Source: Romeriopsis navalis LEGE 11480
Lineage (GTDB): Bacteria > Cyanobacteriota > Cyanobacteriia > Leptolyngbyales > Leptolyngbyaceae
Length of the DNA: 64,000 nt
Assembly: GCF_015207035.1 (NCBI RefSeq)
Contig: NZ_JADEXQ010000016.1
Location: forward strand, 1-64,000
Direction: 5' to 3'
This document shows positions 10,155 through 24,571 of the stretch, one piece after another. Below the pieces are notes generated by a model. The model saw nothing but the letters and a program-made list of their open reading frames with translations, searched no databases and was not told the origin of the DNA. Position 1 is the stretch's first letter. The number at the start of each line of letters is the position of its first letter. Made by a program: the position numbers and the translations under genes.

Positions 10155-10380
10155 GTTGGATGAAATAGCGAGTGCTTACATTTCTGTTCTACAGGATGGG
10201 TTGTGTGAGTTGCGGAGGTGGAAAACCCGATAGGGGTGTGGGGTTTCCCGATGGTGAAGTGCTAATAAGAGCCGTGGCTTTGACGGATTTTCTAAAGGAT
10301 TTGGTGACAATTGGCCAGGGTTGAGGAATTTACGACATACTGTGTGCAGCAAATAAAATCCTTCGTCGGTTTTGATCAAG

Positions 10381-13065
10381 ATGGCTGCCAATCGTCCGAA
10401 GTCTCCGAAAGAACGGCGTGATGAAAAGAATGCTCGGTTGTTTGTTGGTCGGAGTGATCAGCAGAATGAGTTTCAGCGTGCGTTGGTTCAACCGAATCAT
10501 GCGGATGCGAAGGTTGTGTTTAGTATTTCGGGTGTGGGTGGTGTGGGTAAGACGACTCTGTTGAAAGAGTTTCGTCGTATTACTGAGAAGCATGCGCATA
10601 TTCCGGCTTATGTCGATGAAGGTGTAGCAACCAATCCAGTGGATGATGTGCCAGAGGCAATGCATCGATTGGTTGAGGATTTGGAGCGGCAGGGCTATAA
10701 GTCTGAGGCTTTTCGTAAGCGATATAAGGATTACCGGGTTAAGAAAAAAGAGCTAGAAGCTGATCCGGAAGGGCCAAAGAATCTGGTTAAGGATGTGGTT
10801 CGAGGGACGACTAAGGCGGCACTGGATTTAGGTAAGTCATCGGTGCCTGTTGTGGGTGAAATGATTGATAGTGAACCGATTGCTTCGACGATGGGGGAGC
10901 TGGCGGATGCGGGGTGGCAGCGCTTCCGGAATAAGGATGATGAACGGTTGATGAATGAGACTTTGGAGGAGTTGACACCGCTGTTTCTAGAGGGTTTGAA
11001 TCGATTGCCGGAGGAGAAAACTCTGGTGTTGATGCTGGATACTTATGAGGTAACGGGAGATTTTCTAGATGCTTGGTTGAGATCATTTCTAGAAGAGGAA
11101 TTTGGTCAGCCAAAAATTGGCATATTAGTGTGTGTGGCGGGGCGTAAGCCGCTTGACTCAAATCTCTGGATTGAGTGGGAAGGTCTGATGGCGCGATCGC
11201 CGTTAGAACCTTTTGAAAAAGAGGAAGCGCGGCAGTTTCTGGCGGCGAAGGGGGTCAAAAGTGAGGCGATTATTGCGGAAATTTGGCGGTTATCGTCTGG
11301 AGGACTGCCGCTGTTGGTGTCGATGTTGGCCGATGTCGCACCAAAGGGTGTGGATGCCAAAGTGGTTTTGGATGATGTCTGTGTGAAAGCGGTGGAGCGG
11401 TTTCTAAAGTGGGAAACGGATGATGAAAAGCGTAAATTAGCTGCGGATGCGGCCTGTGCCAGAGTGCTGAATCAAGATGTGGTGAATGTGTTGGCCGAAG
11501 GCCAGTTTGACTGGTTGAAAGGTCGGGCGTTTGTGTTGCGGGATGGAACGCGGTGGCGGTATCACTTGGTGGTGCGGGAGCAGATGTTGCGGTATTTGGG
11601 GCAGAAGTCGCCAAAGCGTTATGCCGAAGTCCATGAAAAGTTGGCGGCTTATTATGATGGGTTGCGAAGTGGCTTGGGCTTGGAGGTGGGGAAGGAAGCA
11701 GAGGATAAGGCTTGGCGGGAGTATTCGCTGGAGTGGATTTATCATGGGCTTTGTGCCGCGCCGCAAGCGAAGCTGGGTGTGGTGCTGAATGGATTTTTGG
11801 TGTCGTTGAAGTGGTCGCGAGCGTTTGCGCAAGACTGGGCGGAAGTGATGCGGCAGGTTGGACAGGAAACAAAATGTGAGACTTTGCGACGATGGGGTGA
11901 CCAATTGTGGGATGGGATGGCAGCGTTGAAGAAGAAGTGCTATGAAGATGCGCTTCCATGTTTGACTGCCATTTTGGGAGTCGAACAAGTTGAGGAAAAA
12001 GTCAAGGCCGTGGCTTTTTACGAAAGAGGTGTGACTTATGCTTTGCTTGTGAAATATGACGAAGCAATTTTTGATTTAGAAAATGCGACTGAAATCGAAA
12101 ATAGCATACCTGTTTATCATTTAATCTTGGGCAATACCTACTATGCCCAGCAGCGATATGACGAAGCAATTGTGGCCTATGAACGGGCGATTGAACTGAA
12201 TCCGGAAGATGCTACGGCCTACTATAATCTGGGCATTACCTACAAAGCCCAGCAGCGATATGACGAAGCAATTGTGGCCTATGAACGGGCGATTGAACTG
12301 AATCCGGAAGATGCTACGGCCTACAATAATCTGGGCATTACCTACAAAGCCCAGCAGCGATATGACGAAGCAATTGTGGCCTATGAACGGGCGATTGAAC
12401 TGAATCCGGAATATGCTACGGCCTACAATAATCTGGGCAATACCTACAAAGCCCAGCAGCGATATGACGAAGCAATTGTGGCCTATGAACGAGCGATTGA
12501 ACTGAATCCGGAATATGCTACGGCCTACAATAATCTGGGCAATACCTACAATGCCCAGCAGCGATATGACGAAGCAATTGTGGCCTATGAACGGGCAATT
12601 GAACTGAATCCAGAAGATGCCTGGGCGATCGGAAAACGGGGTGAAATTTATTTGCGAACTAATCAACTTGAAAAGGCGATTCAGGATTTTGATTTGGCAA
12701 TTAAATTAGACTCTGATCATGATTGGGAACTCTATTTGCGAGCACTTGCCTATCTCAAACTAACTCAATCAGAAGCTGCTCACACTGATTTACAACAGGC
12801 AATTATCCTCGCTACAGAAAAGCTGACTAACGACTCGCAGGATGGTCACAGCATTGTCAATTTACCTCTCTATTATTTGGCGATGGGAGATAGCATGACT
12901 GCGGATTTACACTATCAGAAAGCTCTGTCAGCTCCAATCGAACGGTTACAAGAAGCGATCCAAGACCTCGACGACTTACTCAACCTATTCCCCGATCACC
13001 CCCAAGCCCCACAGATAAAACAACTGCTCCAAGCGGAAATTAAACAGCGATCCCCCGCCACCTAA
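10381..13065 (+). CDS. STAND-type P-loop NTPase with C-terminal TPR repeats
   Basis: 894 residues from ATG 10381; a TTG at 10372 is a possible alternative. Order of domains: short basic N-terminus; FVGR motif near 21; Walker A GVGGVGKTT at 51-59; Walker B LVLMLDTYE around 214-222; sensor-like CVAGRKPLD near 245; GGLPLLV near 300; a helical winged-helix-like region at about 330-430; then TPRs at about 545-800. Five consecutive 34-residue TPR units are nearly identical. STAND NTPases (AP-ATPase/NACHT relatives) use NTP-driven oligomerisation to switch on signalling, and many bacterial ones act in phage defence. No N-terminal effector domain (nuclease, protease, TIR) is visible, so the output is unknown. 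The small HTH gene 101 bp downstream is on the same strand but has its own promoter. Confidence 0.85.
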   Translation: MAANRPKSPKERRDEKNARLFVGRSDQQNEFQRALVQPNHADAKVVFSISGVGGVGKTTLLKEFRRITEKHAHIPAYVDEGVATNPVDDVPEAMHRLVEDLERQGYKSEAFRKRYKDYRVKKKELEADPEGPKNLVKDVVRGTTKAALDLGKSSVPVVGEMIDSEPIASTMGELADAGWQRFRNKDDERLMNETLEELTPLFLEGLNRLPEEKTLVLMLDTYEVTGDFLDAWLRSFLEEEFGQPKIGILVCVAGRKPLDSNLWIEWEGLMARSPLEPFEKEEARQFLAAKGVKSEAIIAEIWRLSSGGLPLLVSMLADVAPKGVDAKVVLDDVCVKAVERFLKWETDDEKRKLAADAACARVLNQDVVNVLAEGQFDWLKGRAFVLRDGTRWRYHLVVREQMLRYLGQKSPKRYAEVHEKLAAYYDGLRSGLGLEVGKEAEDKAWREYSLEWIYHGLCAAPQAKLGVVLNGFLVSLKWSRAFAQDWAEVMRQVGQETKCETLRRWGDQLWDGMAALKKKCYEDALPCLTAILGVEQVEEKVKAVAFYERGVTYALLVKYDEAIFDLENATEIENSIPVYHLILGNTYYAQQRYDEAIVAYERAIELNPEDATAYYNLGITYKAQQRYDEAIVAYERAIELNPEDATAYNNLGITYKAQQRYDEAIVAYERAIELNPEYATAYNNLGNTYKAQQRYDEAIVAYERAIELNPEYATAYNNLGNTYNAQQRYDEAIVAYERAIELNPEDAWAIGKRGEIYLRTNQLEKAIQDFDLAIKLDSDHDWELYLRALAYLKLTQSEAAHTDLQQAIILATEKLTNDSQDGHSIVNLPLYYLAMGDSMTADLHYQKALSAPIERLQEAIQDLDDLLNLFPDHPQAPQIKQLLQAEIKQRSPAT
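12129..12638 (+). repeat. Five tandem 102-bp units encoding TPRs
   Basis: Near-identical units start at 12129, 12231, 12333, 12435 and 12537. Each begins GGCAATACC or GGCATTACC and encodes one 34-residue TPR. They differ at only a few positions, many of them in the same places, such as GAAGATGCT against GAATATGCT. That pattern indicates recent duplication or gene conversion rather than ancient divergence. Confidence 0.95.
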
Positions 13066-14938: not shown

Positions 14939-15766
14939 TTAGGGTAGCCAAGGGTACTTGCGAAAGTCTGGCTGGCGTTTCTCCAAGAATGCCTGCTTCC
15001 CTTCCGAGCCTTCCTCCGTCATGTAGTAGAGCATCGTCGTGTTGCCCGCGAGCTCCTGCAAACCCGACTGTCCATCACAGTCAGCATTAAACGCCGCCTT
15101 CAGACAGCGAATCGCGATCGGGCTTTTCTCCAAAATCTCCTGTGCCCACTGAATCCCTTCCGCTTCCAGTTGCTCAATCGGCACCACCGTATTCACCAAC
15201 CCCATCTCCAACGCCGCCGCCGCATCATACTGACGGCAGAGATACCAAATCTCTCTCGCCTTTTTCTGACCGACGACCCGCGCCATATAACTCGCCCCAA
15301 AGCCGCCATCAAAGCTGCCCACCTTCGGCCCTGTTTGCCCAAAAATCGCATTATCGGCGGCGATTGTCAGATCACACAGCAAATGCAGCACATGGCCACC
15401 CCCGATCGCATAACCCGCAACCAGCGCAATCACCACCTTGGGCATCGATCGAATCAGCTTCTGCAAATCCAGCACATTTAGCCGGGGCATCCCCCCTTCA
15501 TCGATATAGCCGCCCTCACCGCGTACACTCTGGTCGCCCCCGGCACAGAACGCATACTTGCCATCGGTATGGGGTCCCATGCCGGAAAATAGCACCACCC
15601 CAATCCGACTATCCTCCCGGGCATTGGCAAAGGCATCGTAGAGTTCCACCACCGTCTTCGGCCGAAACGCATTGCGCTTGTGGGGCCGATTGATCACGAT
15701 TTTGGCGATGCCATCCGCTTTGTAGTAGAGGATGTCTTCATATTCCTTAACGGGCTGCCAATCCAT
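14939..15766 (-). CDS. menB: 1,4-dihydroxy-2-naphthoyl-CoA synthase (MenB)
   Basis: 275 residues, full length. A crotonase-fold enzyme that closes o-succinylbenzoyl-CoA into the naphthoate ring of phylloquinone, the quinone of photosystem I. Signature blocks: [13 protein letters not shown] near residue 26, [11 protein letters not shown] near 74 and [16 protein letters not shown] near 119-134. The block [14 protein letters not shown] near 143-156 carries Gly where the Mycobacterium-type enzyme has Asp. That places it with the bicarbonate-dependent MenB type (known for E. coli). It is cytoplasmic. The gene stands alone, about 5 kb from menD, and is divergent from the peptidoglycan-binding gene. 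Confidence 0.97.
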
Positions 15767-16411: not shown

Positions 16412-17191
16412 TTAATTGAACGCATAAGCGGCCATGCTCAGTACGCTGTAGGTGTAGTTTTGATGGATCTGTCGCGCATTGGCTGATTTACCAGCTGCCC
16501 CGATCACCACAAACAGCGGTAATAAATGCTCCTCCGTGGGATGATTCTCGGCGGCATAGGGTGCGTCGCGTCGATAGTTGATTAACCGTTGCCGATCTAA
16601 TTGTGTAATCGAATCTTGCATCCATTGATCAAATTGTTTGACCCAATGTGGAGCATTGGTATCATAATCATCGGCCATATGGGCTAAGTTATGGGTCATG
16701 CTGCCACTGCCGATAATTAGAACCCCCTGATGGCGCAGGATGGCAATCGCCTGACCGATTTTCCAGTGGTACTCCGGTGTCTGTTCGTAGTTGATCGAGA
16801 GCTGCACGATCGGGATATCGGCTGCGGGATACATCAGCATTAGCGGCACCCAGGCTCCGTGATCGAGCCCGCGATCGGGATTGATTCGGCAAGGAATCTG
16901 GGATTGTTCCAGTAAGGTTTGAATCTGTATTGCGAGTTGCGGTGACCCAGGTGCTTTGTATTGCATCGCATAGAGTTCACTGGCAAAGCCTGAGAAGTCA
17001 TGAATGGTTGCAGGGTTGGTCATGCCACTCACCATCGTGGTGCGGCTATGCCAATGGGCGGAAATCACCAAAATTGCTTTTGGACGGGGGAATGCCTCCG
17101 GTAGGACTTGGAGGAAATCTTGGGTTGCACCTTGATGAATTGCTAAATCCGGTGCGCCATGGGAGAGAAATAGTGTCGGTAAATGGTTCAT
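16412..17191 (-). CDS. LigB/YgiD-type extradiol ring-cleavage dioxygenase
   Basis: 259 residues of the class III extradiol dioxygenase family (DODA/YgiD). The N-terminal SHGAPDLAI near residue 10, ISAHWHSR near 43-50 and the GSGSMTHNL block near 160-168 supply the His residues that bind the non-haem metal; DHGAWVPLMLMYP near 108-120 supplies another His. E. coli YgiD cleaves 4,5-DOPA; the natural substrate here is unknown. It is the last gene of the tight DoxX-cytochrome b561-LigB unit (3-bp gaps), which suggests a role in removing catechols or quinol-derived aromatics. Control by the nearby MarR protein is inferred from operators upstream. Confidence 0.88.
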   Translation of the reverse strand: MNHLPTLFLSHGAPDLAIHQGATQDFLQVLPEAFPRPKAILVISAHWHSRTTMVSGMTNPATIHDFSGFASELYAMQYKAPGSPQLAIQIQTLLEQSQIPCRINPDRGLDHGAWVPLMLMYPAADIPIVQLSINYEQTPEYHWKIGQAIAILRHQGVLIIGSGSMTHNLAHMADDYDTNAPHWVKQFDQWMQDSITQLDRQRLINYRRDAPYAAENHPTEEHLLPLFVVIGAAGKSANARQIHQNYTYSVLSMAAYAFN

Positions 17192-17194
17192 CGA

Positions 17195-17800
17195 TTAACG
17201 TGATAACAGTCGAATTTGAATAAATTTCTGCACCTGCCGCCAGTGGGCCCGGACGACTTTCCACTGGGCAATTAGATGCAAAATAGTCAATGCGAAAAAG
17301 CTGTAGGCCAGCCAGAAGTGGAGATTCCGGGCGATTTCCACGGTGTCGGTATTTTGTGGAAACAAGTCGGGGATAGCAATGCCAAAGAATTTGACGTTGT
17401 GGGCTTTGTAGGCATTGGAGAGCCATACCCCGGTGATCGGTACGCACCCCATAAACAGATAGAGCAGCGTATGCAGCATGACCTTGTGCAGCCAAGCCGG
17501 TGTCACTTGAGGCGGACGCTTTGTATATTTTCGCCACCAGACTTGAATCAGTATGACGACCCGCCAAGCGAGGAAAATCAATGTCAGAATCCCGAGGGAT
17601 TTGTGCAAATCGTAGGCGAAATCGCGTCCATCCTGGGGCAATGGCACATGCACCATGCCCCAGCCACCGGCTAGGAGGAGGACATAGAGCCGTGCCATCC
17701 ACCAATGAATTGACATCAGGTGCAGAAAAGCCGAGTTCGATCGACGCGGTGGTTTGGATGCGCGGGTTTGATTTGGGGATGTCATGGCTCGGAATGGCAT
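17195..17800 (-). CDS. Cytochrome b561-family membrane protein
   Basis: 201 residues with four transmembrane helices. His residues for two b-type haems are placed as expected: LMSIHWWMARLY near residues 28-39, FAYDLHKSLGIL near 65, a His in HKVMLHTLLYLF near 105, and NLHFWLAYSF and ILHLIAQWK near 160-180. The family (CybB, b561) moves electrons between quinol and periplasmic or cytoplasmic acceptors. The start MPFRAM is 3 bp after the doxX-like stop; a second Met is at residue 6. Its place between DoxX and a dioxygenase suggests quinone-linked redox protection. Confidence 0.85.
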   Translation of the reverse strand: MPFRAMTSPNQTRASKPPRRSNSAFLHLMSIHWWMARLYVLLLAGGWGMVHVPLPQDGRDFAYDLHKSLGILTLIFLAWRVVILIQVWWRKYTKRPPQVTPAWLHKVMLHTLLYLFMGCVPITGVWLSNAYKAHNVKFFGIAIPDLFPQNTDTVEIARNLHFWLAYSFFALTILHLIAQWKVVRAHWRQVQKFIQIRLLSR

Positions 17801-17803
17801 AAA

Positions 17804-18283
17804 TTAACGTTTGTGGGACCAAAAATTACCGACGGCGAAAGCCCCGTTGCCCAGTAGGAATTGCACCAAGCAAGCAACCATGAAAAATGCTGGAAATTCC
17901 CAGCCGCCGCCTTCATTCGTGAAGAGCCAGCCGTTGCTGCCATGGACTTTGAAGGTGGCAACCATCAGAATTGGGAATAAGCCTAGAGCGATCCAGCGGG
18001 TGTAGACCCCAGCAATGAGTAAGAGCCCGCCCACAATTTCCAATAGCGCGACTGGCGTAGCCATAAATCCGGGTAGCCCAACACTGACAAAAAACTGCGC
18101 TGTGCCCGCCAGCGTAAACGTAAATACCTTGAGCAAACCGTGAGCTAGGAACAATATGCCTAAGCTGACCCGTAATCCCAAAATGGCATAGGGGGCAGTT
18201 TCCAGATTGATCGTGGCTTGATCGAGACGTGTCGATCGCGGGGCTGTGGTTAAAGTCGGAACGTCGTGAATTTGAATCTTCAT
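17804..18283 (-). CDS. DoxX family membrane protein
   Basis: 159 residues with four hydrophobic helices. The first is preceded by LGLRVSLGILFLAHGLLKVF, the DoxX family signature (near residues 37-56). GGLLLIAGVYTRWIALGLF near 90-108 is the second family block. DoxX relatives are quinone-linked or thiol-stress membrane proteins; their biochemistry is poorly defined. A GGAG site precedes ATG 18283. A perfect palindrome, GTTCTA-AA-TAGAAC, lies 22 bp upstream and matches sites before the marR and CDGSH genes. It heads a three-gene unit with cytochrome b561 and LigB. Confidence 0.88.
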   Translation of the reverse strand: MKIQIHDVPTLTTAPRSTRLDQATINLETAPYAILGLRVSLGILFLAHGLLKVFTFTLAGTAQFFVSVGLPGFMATPVALLEIVGGLLLIAGVYTRWIALGLFPILMVATFKVHGSNGWLFTNEGGGWEFPAFFMVACLVQFLLGNGAFAVGNFWSHKR

Positions 18284-18304
18284 GATTTACTCCTGAGTAG
18301 AAAA

Positions 18305-18318
18305 GTTCTAAATAGAAC
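18305..18318. promoter_or_regulatory. MarR operator upstream of doxX-like gene
   Basis: GTTCTAAATAGAAC is a perfect 6-2-6 inverted repeat, 22 bp before the DoxX start codon and after the CDGSH stop. Nearly the same sequence occurs at 18567-18580 and 19105-19118. MarR dimers typically bind such short palindromes. Binding by the local MarR protein is inferred from proximity. Confidence 0.7.
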
Positions 18319-18345
18319 TAAAAGGGCTAAAAAACAGCAGAATTA

Positions 18346-18522
18346 CTACTGGCTGATTTCGACCAGCTTAGGGCTGTCGAGTTCGAGTGCAAGGGGTTGA
18401 AACAGGGTGCCTTTGTGGCCACCATCGCAATAGGGAAAATTCTGGGATTGCCCGCAGGAGCAGATCCAATGAGTGCCAGCTTCGAGGGAGACGGTTGTCG
18501 AGCCAGGGTTTGTTTGCGTCAT
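18346..18522 (-). CDS. CDGSH-type iron-sulfur protein
   Basis: A 58-residue reading frame from ATG 18522 to TAG at 18346. It contains the motif CSCGQSQNFPYCDGGH at residues 21-36. This matches C-x-C-x2-(S/T)-x3-P-x-C-D-G-(S/A/T)-H except that the small residue before His is Gly. Three Cys and one His would hold a redox-active [2Fe-2S] cluster that is labile and often a sensor of oxidative state. It is cytoplasmic and close to the minimum size of the family. It sits between two matching palindromes in the MarR cluster, which supports a redox-stress role. Confidence 0.85.
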   Translation of the reverse strand: MTQTNPGSTTVSLEAGTHWICSCGQSQNFPYCDGGHKGTLFQPLALELDSPKLVEISQ

Positions 18523-18566
18523 GATGCTTCGTCTTGTGAGATTACAAAATTGTTCGAGAGAATTTA

Positions 18567-18580
18567 GTTTTAACTAGAAC
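18567..18580. promoter_or_regulatory. MarR operator upstream of the CDGSH gene
   Basis: GTTTTAACTAGAAC, an imperfect copy of GTTCTAAATAGAAC, lies 45 bp before the CDGSH start and after the marR stop. It keeps both outer half-site ends (GTT...AAC) and the TAGAAC half-site. Confidence 0.6.
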
Positions 18581-18637
18581 AATAATTCAAATCTACCCGA
18601 TCGATTTAGAAATGGCAAGGAGAATTTGGATTTTTTC

Positions 18638-19087
18638 TTAGAAAGCCTGTTGCAATCGACGGAGGAGGACTTTGAGAAGTTCAAGTTCTGATGGGTCGAG
18701 TTGGTCGAAGCGTTCTTTGAGGTGGGCGATATGGGCTGGAAAGACTTGCTGGAAAACTGCTTCGCCTTGGGGTGTGAGTTGGACGAGGACACTGCGGCGG
18801 TCGCCATCGGGGGTTTCACGCTGAACCAGGTCTTTTTTGATCAGCCGATCGATCACCCCAGTCAGTGTGCCTTTTGTGATCAATGTGCGTTCGCCAATTT
18901 CCCCCATGCTCATGCCGTTCGTATTTCCTAGAGTGGCGATCACATCGAACTGTGATGGGGTGAGATCGAATTGTCGAATGTGCGATTCGGAGTAGGCAGA
19001 AAATGCTTGATAAGCCCTCGCTAGCTCCCGCATGGTTGGGATGAAAGATTCTTTCGCCGCTTCGCTAGGTCGTTTGGGCTGAGGCAT
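18638..19087 (-). CDS. MarR family transcriptional regulator
   Basis: 149 residues. The winged-helix domain spans about residues 40-130: LTPSQFDVIATLGNTNGMSMGE (helices 2-3), the recognition helix in LITKGTLTGVIDRLIKKDLV, and the beta-wing RETPDGDRRSVLVQLTPQG. MarR proteins are homodimeric repressors released by phenolic ligands or cysteine oxidation. No Cys is visible here, so ligand control is more likely than thiol oxidation. Overlapping palindromes directly upstream (19105-19126) indicate autoregulation. The same motif precedes the CDGSH and doxX-like genes. Ligand unknown. Confidence 0.92.
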   Translation of the reverse strand: MPQPKRPSEAAKESFIPTMRELARAYQAFSAYSESHIRQFDLTPSQFDVIATLGNTNGMSMGEIGERTLITKGTLTGVIDRLIKKDLVQRETPDGDRRSVLVQLTPQGEAVFQQVFPAHIAHLKERFDQLDPSELELLKVLLRRLQQAF

Positions 19088-19104
19088 AGAATACGCTGCA
19101 AACT

Positions 19105-19126
19105 GTTCTAAATAGAATCTATTCTA
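19105..19126. promoter_or_regulatory. Double MarR operator upstream of marR
   Basis: Two overlapping inverted repeats: GTTCTA-AA-TAGAAT at 19105-19118 (one mismatch) and TAGAAT-CT-ATTCTA at 19113-19126 (perfect). They lie 18-39 bp before the marR ATG, the usual place for an autorepressor site. Confidence 0.7.
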
Positions 19127-19152
19127 GATGTTGTGTCCAATTTCTAAAAACT

Positions 19153-19797
19153 TCAGTCACAGCCCCCAATATCGCAGCCATCACAGCCGCCGATATCACA
19201 ATCGCCCACATCGCAGCCGCCGATACCACAATCATCGATGTCGCAGATGCCCGCATCACAATCGCTACAGCTGTCCAATATGTCACAGTCCCCCGTGCTA
19301 TCACAACTGCCCAACCCACAGTCCGGAGTATCGCAATTGCCAATATCTTTGGAGAATATATCGCATCCACAGTCCGCCACATCACACCAGTTACCATCAC
19401 TGTTACTGGGATTGTTGGATTTTCGTTGGGGATTGTCGTCTTCCCCATTTGCTTGAATGCGGTTAGTGCGGATTGTTTGGATGCGACTGGCGCGGATGGT
19501 GAGATTTGCTTGGTGGCATTCTTGGAGTCGCTGCTGAAAGGGCTGAATTGCTTGGGTGAAGCCTTTCGTGCTCAACAGTTCGCGAAAGTAGGCGGAGCAG
19601 GATGGGCCACCGTGAAGTTTGGTGTAGGCGCAGGAGAAGCCTTTACGGGGGGAGAGATGTTTTTGGTATTTGCGGACAGCGAAGTCTGCACTCCGATCGA
19701 ATGCGCCACTTAACCCAATACTGCTAGCCAGTTTGCCGATCGGTGCGAGGTGAGTGAGAGAAGTCGCAATGATTCCGCGTCGATAAGTGCTGTGCAT
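19153..19797 (-). CDS. YidD-like protein with Cys-Asp-rich tail
   Basis: 214 residues. Residues about 38-85 match the YidD (membrane protein insertion efficiency factor) core: VRKYQKHLSPRKGFSCAYTK, then PSCSAYFRELLSTKGF. YidD assists YidC-dependent membrane insertion and is normally only 70-90 residues. Here an added C-terminal tail of about 80 residues is built from Cys-Asp and Gly motifs (such as GDCDIGGCDGCD) and holds 16 cysteines. The tail could bind metal ions or form disulfides; this is inference. The DNA under the tail is a degenerate repeat. The gene lies just upstream of marR but is not obviously part of its regulon. Confidence 0.75.
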   Translation of the reverse strand: MHSTYRRGIIATSLTHLAPIGKLASSIGLSGAFDRSADFAVRKYQKHLSPRKGFSCAYTKLHGGPSCSAYFRELLSTKGFTQAIQPFQQRLQECHQANLTIRASRIQTIRTNRIQANGEDDNPQRKSNNPSNSDGNWCDVADCGCDIFSKDIGNCDTPDCGLGSCDSTGDCDILDSCSDCDAGICDIDDCGIGGCDVGDCDIGGCDGCDIGGCD

Positions 19798-20682: not shown

Positions 20683-22521
20683 CTACACCCCAGCGGCGAC
20701 ATTTTCCTGAAACTGTTTACGCCATGTGACATCAACTGTCCGATCACACCTGACTTCTAAGACTTGAATGTCCTGTTTTGGCAGTGCTTCGAGCTGGTGG
20801 CAGAATGTTTCCCAGTCGTTAATGACGCAATGGTTAATTCCGTAGGTTTTGCATAGATCGGCGAAGTCAACATTTTGCGGTGTCGAAAAGAATTCTTCAA
20901 AGGGTGGTTCAAACTGCGCAATCGGCAGCATCCCGAAAATTCCACCACCGTTGTTATTGATTACGACGATCGTCAAACTCCCTCGGAGATATTTGCGCAT
21001 TAGAAAGCCATTTGTGTCGTGGAGAAGTGCCAAATCGCCTGTCAGCAAAACCGTTGGCTTGCCTTGATGTGCTACCCCGAGGGCGGTTGATAATGTGCCG
21101 TCGATGCCGTTGGCCCCACGATTGAAAAAGGGTTGGATATGGCGATCGTTCCCCGGCCAGAAATATTCCACATCCCTTACGGGCATACTGTTGGCGATGA
21201 AGATTGGTGTGTTGGGGGGTAGGACTTGGGGGAGGAGCCAAGCGACTTTGCTTTCGAGAATGTTGGTTGTAGCTGTGAAGATTTGGTCGATGTGAGTACG
21301 GAGTTTGGATTCGGCGGTTTGCCAGAGATTGAGGTAGTAGCTTGCCTCCCCCCCTTGTGTTGGCACAGCCCCTCTGAAGGAGTTAGGGGGGATCAGATCT
21401 GGCGCGATCGATGTTGGATTTTGAGTTGCTCCGGTTTGATTGATTGGTTCCGTGGTGGGTGATCCCCCTAAATCCCCCTTCATAAGGGGGACTTTTAAAT
21501 CCTCGATCGTGGCATAGATTTGCTGAGTGCGCCCATGAATTGGGTCGATCGACCTTGGGGTTTCGTCGATGATCCAAATCTCTGGGTTTACCTGTGTCAG
21601 CCAACTCCGTAGTATTTTGCTAATCGGCATGGCTCCAATGCGAATAACAATTTCTGGTGCTAACTTTGCTGCTCGATCGTGATTGCGCAAAATCGAGTCG
21701 TAGGTTGTAATCAAGTGCGGTTGGAAACTAGCAAAGTTCCGAACGGGGGAAAGCCCTTCAGCTAAGACGGAATAGCCCAGTGTTTGTGATAGCTGTGCAA
21801 TTGCGGTGCAATAAAGCTCTGGATGTTTTGGTGCAGCAACGCCAGCAATAATAATGCCTTTGCGGTCATGCCACTCTGATGGAATCGGAAACGATTGATC
21901 AATCGCTGGTGATTGAATGCTTAAATGCTGAAAGAAATCTTCTGGAAATGATTTTGATGATGCTTGAATGTCTTCAGCAATAACCGGAGCCAATGGATCG
22001 CGCAATGGGATATTTAGATGTACTGCGCCTGCAACTGGAGCGATTGCCTGCTGAAATGCCTGGGCAACTTTTTGGCGTAAATAATCAAGTAAGTCAGTTT
22101 CCGGAATCGCTAACTCGGCATAGTAATTGGGGAAATCGCCAAATAATTTCTGTTGGTCGATCGCTTGCCCCGCATTGCAATCGCGTAGCTCTGGCGGTCG
22201 ATCGGCGGTTAAGACAATCAGCGGTACGCGGCTTTCCTTGGCTTCAATTACGGCGGGATAGAAGTTCGCACCAGCGGTGCCGGATGTGCAAACGAGGACT
22301 ACGGGTTTGTGGGTGCGTTGGGCGATACCGAGGGCAAAAAAACTCGCCGATCGTTCGTCTAAGACTGGAATGGCTTCAACCGCTGGATGCTGGGCGAATG
22401 CCACGGTCAGTGGCGCAGAACGGGAACCCGGACAGATGATCGCGGTTTCGAGGCCACAGCGGTAAAGGGTTTCGACTAGGACCGAAGCCCAGAGCGTGTT
22501 GAGGTTACGGAAATCCAGCAT
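20683..22521 (-). CDS. menD: 2-succinyl-5-enolpyruvyl-6-hydroxy-3-cyclohexene-1-carboxylate synthase (MenD)
   Basis: 612 residues. A thiamine-diphosphate enzyme that adds succinic semialdehyde (from 2-oxoglutarate) to isochorismate, the second committed step of phylloquinone synthesis. N-terminal ICPGSRSAPLTVAFAQHP near 28-45 and VLDERSASFFALGIAQ near 53-68 form the substrate side with catalytic Glu. The TPP pyrophosphate motif is LLTGDLALLHDTNGFL near residues 490-505. About 50 extra residues at roughly 340-392 are encoded by hairpin repeats (see separate entry); the family is usually about 560-580 residues. The insert is in frame and falls between the central and C-terminal domains, so activity is probably kept. 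Confidence 0.95.
   Translation of the reverse strand: MLDFRNLNTLWASVLVETLYRCGLETAIICPGSRSAPLTVAFAQHPAVEAIPVLDERSASFFALGIAQRTHKPVVLVCTSGTAGANFYPAVIEAKESRVPLIVLTADRPPELRDCNAGQAIDQQKLFGDFPNYYAELAIPETDLLDYLRQKVAQAFQQAIAPVAGAVHLNIPLRDPLAPVIAEDIQASSKSFPEDFFQHLSIQSPAIDQSFPIPSEWHDRKGIIIAGVAAPKHPELYCTAIAQLSQTLGYSVLAEGLSPVRNFASFQPHLITTYDSILRNHDRAAKLAPEIVIRIGAMPISKILRSWLTQVNPEIWIIDETPRSIDPIHGRTQQIYATIEDLKVPLMKGDLGGSPTTEPINQTGATQNPTSIAPDLIPPNSFRGAVPTQGGEASYYLNLWQTAESKLRTHIDQIFTATTNILESKVAWLLPQVLPPNTPIFIANSMPVRDVEYFWPGNDRHIQPFFNRGANGIDGTLSTALGVAHQGKPTVLLTGDLALLHDTNGFLMRKYLRGSLTIVVINNNGGGIFGMLPIAQFEPPFEEFFSTPQNVDFADLCKTYGINHCVINDWETFCHQLEALPKQDIQVLEVRCDRTVDVTWRKQFQENVAAGV
21345..21500. repeat. REP-like hairpin insertion inside menD
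   Basis: Two GC-rich hairpin blocks flank a short stretch. 21461-21500 contains GATCCCCCTAAATCCCCCTT and TCCCCCTT facing AAGGGGGA across CAT (21473-21491). 21347-21395 contains CCCCCC facing GGGGGG with inner repeats. The words match those of widespread cyanobacterial palindromic repeats. They are translated in frame within menD as a Pro/Gly-rich insertion. Confidence 0.75.
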
Positions 22522-23149: not shown

Positions 23150-24571
23150 CTAAACTAATGCTTTGAGTAAAGCCTGAAGTTTGAGTTGGACTTCGTTTAA
23201 CTCCTTCTCAGGGTCAGAACCAGCCACAATACCGGCACCAGCAAACAGCCTGGCGGTATTTCCTTTGAGCAGAGCCGATCGAATTCCCACGGCAAACTCG
23301 CCATTGCCTTGGGTGTCGATCCAGCCGATCGGTGCGGCATAAAGTCCGCGATCGAAGTCTTCGTAGTGCGGAATATGTTGGCAGGCGATTTCACGGGGTA
23401 AACCAGCGACTGCTGGCGTGGGATGCAATGATCCGACGACATCGAGAATATGTCCGTTCTCTGGCATGGCAGCACTAATGGGCGTATGCCGATGCTGGAT
23501 GTTCGGTAGGCGTAATAACCGCGGTTCGTCTAGCTTCGCACAAATGTTTAATTTCGAGAGTTGTTGTTGGATAAAGTCAATCACAAGCTGATGTTCACGG
23601 GCTTCTTTGTCGCTATTAATCAGTTGATTGGCGAACTTTTGGTCTGCTTGGGTGGTTTTTCCACGGGGCGCGGACCCCGCTAAGGCTTCGGTTTTGAGTT
23701 GTTGATCCTGGACAGCGACTAAGCGTTCGGGACTCGCACCGATAAAGGTTTTGCCCGCACCACAAGTCGCGGAGAAGATATAGCAGCTGGGATAGTGATC
23801 GCGGAGATTTTGCAATGAGCTGATTAAATCGAATGGCTCTGATGCATGGATATCGAGGGTTTTCGCCAGAACAATCTTATCCAGTTGGCCATTGCTGATC
23901 GACTTCAAGGCGTTCGTGACGGACTGCTTAAATTGGACTTGGGTCGAAGTACTCTGCGGGGCGATCGTCGCGGTAATGGCATTAACGGGTTTGGTTAAAA
24001 CGGATTTTGCCGATCGCAGATTCTCTAATTCTTGGGAAATCCGCTGGCTTTCCGCTTCGGGAATAAAATCAGGATGCAGAACAATATTGACAATGGCCCA
24101 AGCGGCTGGTTGATCGCTGCTAGTCTTTTGCTCGACCTGCCAGCGCGGTAGCAAAATGGCGGCTTGACTCGTATCGGTTTGGCCTTGAGCAAAAAATGAA
24201 AAATTACAGAAAAACCGGCTGTCCGTAATAGCTTGAACGGTACCGGCGGCATCGACTGAGAGGATTTGGCTGCTGAGATCTGTGATTAAGTCACGGGTTT
24301 GGGCAAACCGATCACGGCTCTCGACCGTGAGCTGAATTGCTTTGCCTAGCCCAACAAAGCAATCATCTGCATGCTCGAAGTAAAAATGATGGTGTTGCGC
24401 TCCGTGAAACCGCTGCAAAATCGCCAGGGGATTGAAACTGGCAATCGGAAACTTAATGCTGACGAGACGGGGGTGCCGATTGTTGCGGAACGCTAGGTAG
24501 CATTCGGTCAAAAAATCAGAAAGTTGATAGGCGCTTTCTAAGGCAAAAAACGGTTTTTCAATAACAGACAT
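23150..24571 (-). CDS. menF: Isochorismate synthase (MenF)
   Basis: 473 residues of the chorismate-utilising enzyme family. It converts chorismate to isochorismate, opening the phylloquinone pathway. The active-site blocks are all in the C-terminal half: KIVLAKTLDIHA near residue 232, ASPERLVAVQ near 280, TEALAGSAPRG near 295-305, SDKEAREHQLVIDFI near 320 and PAVAGLPREIACQHIP near 390 with GLYAAPIGW. Magnesium-binding Glu residues are present. A perfect 14-bp palindrome lies 61 bp before the start codon. It is the first of the men genes on this side and faces the lprI-like gene in a 22-bp convergent gap. Confidence 0.95.
   Translation of the reverse strand: MSVIEKPFFALESAYQLSDFLTECYLAFRNNRHPRLVSIKFPIASFNPLAILQRFHGAQHHHFYFEHADDCFVGLGKAIQLTVESRDRFAQTRDLITDLSSQILSVDAAGTVQAITDSRFFCNFSFFAQGQTDTSQAAILLPRWQVEQKTSSDQPAAWAIVNIVLHPDFIPEAESQRISQELENLRSAKSVLTKPVNAITATIAPQSTSTQVQFKQSVTNALKSISNGQLDKIVLAKTLDIHASEPFDLISSLQNLRDHYPSCYIFSATCGAGKTFIGASPERLVAVQDQQLKTEALAGSAPRGKTTQADQKFANQLINSDKEAREHQLVIDFIQQQLSKLNICAKLDEPRLLRLPNIQHRHTPISAAMPENGHILDVVGSLHPTPAVAGLPREIACQHIPHYEDFDRGLYAAPIGWIDTQGNGEFAVGIRSALLKGNTARLFAGAGIVAGSDPEKELNEVQLKLQALLKALV

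Follow-up and report, generated by a model that had tools for sequence, protein, structure and literature searches.

Does a regulator gene of the MarR family in a cyanobacterium share one DNA switch with the redox and ring-cleavage genes beside it, and if so, to what does the switch respond? The locus lies in a 64,000-nucleotide stretch of Romeriopsis navalis LEGE 11480 (contig NZ_JADEXQ010000016.1), the whole of which we call the window, and comprises marR and genes for a CDGSH-type iron-sulfur protein, a DoxX-family membrane protein, a cytochrome b561-type membrane protein and a LigB-type dioxygenase. Judging from the sequences, this is probably a real stress-response circuit in which the repressor gene and its neighbours share one switch; we put at about 0.66 the probability that it consists of a cysteine-free MarR repressor that controls its own gene as well as detoxification genes and that a phenolic or quinone releases. 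We build this reading on the sites, the gene families, the conservation of sites and genes, the absence of cysteine and two retained pocket residues, and from these we infer the binding, the repression, the ligand and the enzymatic roles. A preliminary description of the window had proposed a repressed response to a phenolic or quinone stressor; the regulon of MarR and its operators is strongly supported by footprinting in other cyanobacteria, and the aromatic theme is supported by gene content (a 4,5-DOPA-dioxygenase-like LigB, with a glutathionyl-hydroquinone reductase [GHR] in relatives).

The five genes all lie on the minus strand (that description had the four other than marR running in one direction), and each scores above its Pfam cut-off: marR (18638..19087, 149 amino acids [aa]; MarR_2 9e-17, MarR 2e-15), the CDGSH gene (18346..18522, 58 aa; zf-CDGSH 3e-9), doxX (17804..18283, 159 aa; DoxX 2e-21), the cytochrome b561-type gene (17195..17800, 201 aa; Ni_hydr_CYTB 5e-19) and the gene for a LigB/YgiD-like class III extradiol dioxygenase (16412..17191, 259 aa; LigB 6e-43). 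Three predicted operators related to the palindrome GTTCTANNTAGAAC, also on the minus strand, precede marR, the CDGSH gene and doxX. A perfect one, GTTCTATTTAGAAC, lies at 18305..18318, 22-35 bp before the doxX ATG; the second, at 18567..18580 and 45-58 bp before the CDGSH ATG, has 1 mismatch; and the third, GTTCTAaaTAGAAT at 19105-19118, likewise with 1 mismatch, forms with an overlapping half-site to 19126 a composite predicted operator (19105..19126) whose end is about 17-18 bp before the marR ATG. Measured against the exact string GTTCTAAATAGAAC, the doxX site is perfect, the marR site has 1 mismatch and the CDGSH site has 2. The preliminary description had counted four operators; three stand, and the supposed fourth (19113-19126, TAGAATCTATTCTA) turns out to be an everted pair, of which one half-site, TAGAAT, belongs also to 19105-19118 and the other is a third half-site. 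Nowhere else in the genome is this three-half-site composite matched at ≤3 mismatches.

Within the window there are 9 matches at ≤3 mismatches against 3.8 expected, a count that 2 of 100 shuffles reach; all matches other than the three sites have 3 mismatches, so that the motif is indeed, as had been noticed, confined here to the cluster. A weight matrix derived from the marR sites of other genomes ranks the same three sites as its top three places in the 64 kb. Across the 6.47-Mb genome, GTTCTANNTAGAAC occurs perfectly once and with ≤1 mismatch at 8 places, three of them in the marR cluster, whereas the reversed-pattern control occurs at 26 places; because of these counts, we regard the motif as not enriched genome-wide yet concentrated at this cluster, and its frequency, which if random had been named as refuting the proposal, is random in total number and not in location. 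The Poisson probability of at least three sites within 1 kb is about 3e-10. We rejected a wider regulon in this genome, as the other five places lie inside genes or beside unrelated genes (read from translations, one is near trigger factor/clpP and one 3′ of ilvD), and no aromatic genes were seen there. The unremarkable genomic total, and a window count that shuffling occasionally attains, are what would be expected if AT-rich palindromes had arisen here by chance and the genes were grouped incidentally, but the local density speaks against this, as do the conservation of sites at equivalent promoters across many genera and the absence of sites from homologous loci where there are no module genes.

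For this comparison, close relatives of the window MarR (matches at E≤1e-54) were found in 49 of 388 cyanobacterial genomes, and we examined 54 loci plus the window, 55 in all, scoring LigB, GHR, CDGSH, DoxX and SnoaL as module genes. Near-identical regions were removed from the site counts upstream of marR and in the downstream gap. One homologue, L066 (G020, E 1.3e-55), with no module gene among its neighbours, was left out of the locus, site and alignment counts, and L064 (G030), below the threshold, was included; L109 and L025 look like the same stretch, as do L026 and L125, from matching neighbour coordinates and sizes. In 23 dereplicated loci, the stretch separating marR from the first module gene contains a perfect site in 10 cases, one at ≤1 mismatch in 15, at ≤2 in 17 and at ≤3 in 21, against shuffled means of 0.00, 0.02, 0.22 and 2.18, respectively. 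None of the 24 dereplicated loci without a module gene 3′ of marR, a group that includes L062, L138, L139 and L143, in which a ligB-GHR pair precedes marR, has a site at ≤2 mismatches. Site and module genes are therefore kept together in other cyanobacteria, the comparison that the preliminary description had proposed, and chance is contradicted both by the 15 of 23 loci against 0.02 in shuffles and by the 0 of 24; we find an origin by chance scarcely credible.

Among 40 dereplicated loci, 5 carry the site upstream of marR at ≤1 mismatch, 8 at ≤2 and 21 at ≤3, with shuffles giving 0.00, 0.21 and 2.13 (maximum 7 at ≤3). In 11 of the 21 orthologous cases, a TARAAT hexamer immediately flanks the marR site on its left, as would fit a −10 box with an operator after it. 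Perfect sites precede the CDGSH gene in L025, L105 and L113; the CDGSH-doxX gap holds a site with 0 mismatches in the window, 1 in L025/L109, 1 in L113 and 3 in L105; and the SnoaL-ligB gap holds one with 0 mismatches in L060 and 1 in L112. Nothing better than 4 mismatches was found in the doxX-ligB and ligB-GHR gaps, and the genes preceded by sites are leading genes: marR, CDGSH, doxX, SnoaL and ligB. The 25 regulator-bearing genomes contain 25 perfect sites spread over 18 genomes, and 18 of these sites, assigned by coordinates, are in the marR cluster (16 genomes); 20 genomes without a close MarR homologue contain 3. Because most perfect sites in relatives fall in the marR cluster, we take the regulon to be mostly local. 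Perfect sites elsewhere in relatives (seven places) are within genes, between other genes or close to an mnmE-like gene, and one (G220, L166:3073) is 30 bp before an open reading frame whose nearest models are those of NAD(P)H quinone oxidoreductase; because its protein scores 115 bits, below the curated cut-off of 296.8, we treat it as a lead only.

Counted from the locus listing, at least one module gene lies near marR in 32 of the 55 loci, with LigB in 25, GHR in 19 (in L131 as a short fragment), CDGSH in 9 and DoxX in 7. A cytochrome b561 homologue was not found in the other 54 loci, and for that reason we rejected it as a core member and consider it a local addition. Gene order varies, the arrangements being marR-ligB-GHR, marR-CDGSH-doxX-ligB-GHR (L025, Elainella), marR-SnoaL-ligB-GHR and ligB-GHR-marR. 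On the MarR tree, the presence of module genes requires 6 changes, compared with 13.1 in shuffles, and 23 of 26 module rows fall in one group of 31 with 100/99 support; module genes are thus clustered on this sequence-based tree, but without a single origin. Some loci carry further genes: a flavin-reductase-like gene on the opposite strand just 3′ of ligB or GHR (L102, L103, L121 and L123) and a pyridine-nucleotide oxidoreductase of ~435 aa adjoining CDGSH (L133, L135 and L137). There is also an alternative setting, running in one direction, of an RPE65-type dioxygenase, marR, a DAO-Rieske oxidoreductase, a HIT protein and psbA (L026, L116-L120, L122, L125, L130 and L140, and partly L115), occupied by MarR homologues of one genus plus a few others; here no site at ≤2 mismatches precedes the other genes, and the only site is marR's own.

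The two genes that most often accompany the regulator point to aromatic substrates. Among solved structures, the window LigB matches the 4,5-DOPA dioxygenase extradiol 8in2 (E 5e-61) and YgiD 2pw6 (6e-49), and against the NCBIfam equivalog PRK10628 it scores 226.3 bits with a cut-off of 233. The GHR beside marR in L025 is a Xi-class GST with full-length matches to 6gzf (4e-108), YqjG 3r3e (1e-94) and the GHR 4uss (2e-88). A cyanobacterial homologue of this enzyme class, the Xi-class GST Slr0605, is required for Synechocystis to tolerate benzoquinone, and MarR control goes unmentioned in that text (PMC11673678). In Pseudomonas fluorescens In5 facing Rhizoctonia, LigB (39x), the GHR YqjG (23.5x), DoxX (5.9x) and cytochrome b (3.5x) are induced together with azoreductases, and the authors suspect phenolics behind this co-induction (PMC5557065). 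The circuit might, however, be real and respond to some other signal (urate-like, fatty-acid or redox), its genes serving general redox or membrane homeostasis. A MarR ligand is not readable from sequence, the structures of the urate-linked MftR, PecS and HucR score as high as that of the quinone sensor MhqR, DoxX and CDGSH proteins have broad roles, and Slr0605 protects against cobalt too (PMC11673678). We nonetheless think another signal rather unlikely, as a LigB-family dioxygenase and GHR, both belonging to catechol and quinone chemistry, recur beside the regulator together with its sites.

The regulator itself has 149 residues with no cysteine in its translation; at E≤0.001, all the models that it matches are of MarR type or generic winged-helix ones, with no HxlR-type (DUF24) domain among them. 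Its AlphaFold model (pLDDT 92.7) resembles solved MarR-family structures at Z of about 16. With a profile of 42 homologues, Staphylococcus aureus MhqR (SaMhqR) is the fourth-best solved sequence (2.3e-17), and with the predicted model Foldseek places MhqR (9qdr/9smz) second and VIA-align places it third (Z 16.2 for 9qdr). MftR, PecS, HpaR and AbsC are tied with it in the structure ranking, and with so many MarR proteins within Z 1 we claim no single closest relative. The quinone pocket of MhqR is formed by F11, F39, E43 and H111 (PMC12893000); F39 corresponds to F47 of the window protein (42 of 42 rows) and H111 to H119 (40 of 42), so that, by alignment, two of the four pocket residues are conserved and the full pocket is not. 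A paralogue in this genome (G000:C32:31032-31454, L065) is 55% identical, and its homologues in many relatives have a common upstream TTAGTACTGT-like element.

The lack of cysteine bears on whether this MarR could instead be an activator, or a thiol or Fe-S redox sensor like OhrR, QsrR or ChlR. The precedent is ChlR, which shares with the window regulator its family and its occurrence in cyanobacteria, and which is an activator with a [4Fe-4S] cluster at C18/C25, the motif TTMCC-N3/4-GGWAA and chlA2-ho2-hemN as targets (PMC13421787). Here the cysteines are lacking, and motif and targets are different; 24 of 42 homologue rows are likewise cysteine-free, with no cysteine column above 8 of 42, and the sites are close to start codons (about 17-58 bp), as repression would predict. 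We therefore ruled out identity with ChlR, since cysteine is absent and the sites differ, as well as a thiol-sensing MarR of the OhrR/QsrR type, as there is no residue to act as the reactive N-terminal cysteine, and activation or redox sensing seems to us quite improbable.

Several observations nevertheless weigh against a phenol- or quinone-released repressor. In this genome GTTCTANNTAGAAC is in total no commoner than the reversed control, and no exact or near-exact site was seen at the genome's own GHR gene, which lies away from the cluster (C15:44593-45438, L074). Among relatives, a site at ≤3 mismatches is missing upstream of marR in 19 of 40 loci, the module loci L131 (7 mismatches, 26-bp gap) and L135 (4) have no good site, and in L121, L123, L133 and L137 the best site has 3 mismatches. 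In the protein alignment, E43 of SaMhqR is replaced by A51 and F11 by M19, and F39 and H111 are also present in MarR proteins that have different ligands (PMC12893000).

Our literature search, with subscription papers largely outside its reach, found no description of such a cyanobacterial regulon, and two systems of other bacteria come close to it. CatD of Bacillus subtilis is DoxX-like. The catDE operon, under CatR, YodB and Fur, pairs a catechol dioxygenase with another detoxification gene, is negatively regulated by a sensor of catechol and has two CatR boxes (PMC6212828); CatR, however, is of the MarR/DUF24 type and CatE a catechol 2,3-dioxygenase (PMC6212828), whereas here the regulator is of classical MarR type and the dioxygenase a class III LigB. 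MhqR of S. aureus and B. subtilis is, like the regulator proposed here, a cysteine-independent, autoregulated MarR repressor with a palindromic operator (PMC12893000, PMC6798810), binding in our case being predicted, and its targets, a ring-cleavage dioxygenase and a quinone reductase, resemble the present gene set (PMC12893000, PMC6798810). Its operator, TATCTCGAA-ATCGAAATA (PMC12893000), differs from GTTCTANNTAGAAC, and so do the enzyme families (here YgiD-type LigB, Xi-GST, DoxX and CDGSH), the host and the pocket residues E43 and F11. The circuit would work like MhqR and CatR/catDE and is a member of neither; we do not file it with them because operator, pocket and enzyme families differ. 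In Corynebacterium glutamicum, the Xi-class thiol transferase MstX is negatively regulated by the MarR-type sensor RosR (PMC6815410), but that pair is linked to H2O2 sensing and mycothiol, and a LigB/DoxX/CDGSH module is not described in the available part of the report (PMC6815410).

We propose that a MarR dimer would bind GTTCTANNTAGAAC at the promoters of marR, the CDGSH gene and doxX, probably adjoining or covering the transcription start, much as the MhqR operator overlaps the start and spans −6 to +12 (PMC6798810), and that bound MarR would hold down expression of marR, the CDGSH gene and doxX-b561-ligB. Entry of a phenolic, catechol or quinone into the pocket on the F47/H119 side would release the protein from DNA. 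The LigB/YgiD-like enzyme could then open catechol-type rings, with DoxX, b561 and CDGSH supplying or relaying electrons, and in many relatives GHR would strip glutathione from hydroquinone adducts. A terminator-like stem with a T run 3′ of the CDGSH gene (18335..18351, minus strand) suggests that doxX is a transcription unit separate from it, and a possible −10 box, TAGAAT (19121..19126, minus strand), overlaps the composite operator at marR; the counts from these scans are near background (5 terminator-like sites versus 2.9 expected, and 4 promoter-like matches versus 3.3), and each is weak alone.

The cluster is flanked by menB (14939-15766) and menD (20683-22521), with an isochorismate synthase gene (23150-24571) beyond menD, and it splits menD from menB by about 4.9 kb. 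In 30 sampled menB loci (the window, where the two are not adjacent, included), menD is directly beside menB in 16, none of which has a searched module gene between the two, and no MenB turned up close to marR in any of the other 54 loci. The placement may be a coincidence, or a hint of an endogenous naphthoquinone signal. If so, the MarR might sense a naphthoquinone or benzoquinone of the cell's own, produced in or escaping from phylloquinone or plastoquinone metabolism (dihydroxynaphthoate, for example), and LigB-GHR-DoxX-CDGSH-b561 might form a membrane-linked repair line, a quinone-homeostasis regulon that we consider unlikely. Elsewhere in the window, a YidD-family protein (19153-19797) carries at its C terminus a long tail of Cys-Asp-Gly repeats that looks unusual for YidD, and an NTPase-like protein (10372-13065) has, by eye from its translation, a long run of near-identical TPR-like repeats.

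With ChlR as the MarR regulator that a review describes for cyanobacteria (PMC13421787), a phenol- or quinone-released repressor at this locus would be a second one, conserved and with a defined operator. If our reading is true, it would provide a genetic handle on quinone sensing and clearance in phototrophs, organisms that depend on quinones and encounter phenolics from plants and algae, and it would place the already characterised GHR, DODA-like LigB, DoxX and CDGSH proteins in one pathway, with a candidate phenol- or quinone-responsive promoter at hand.

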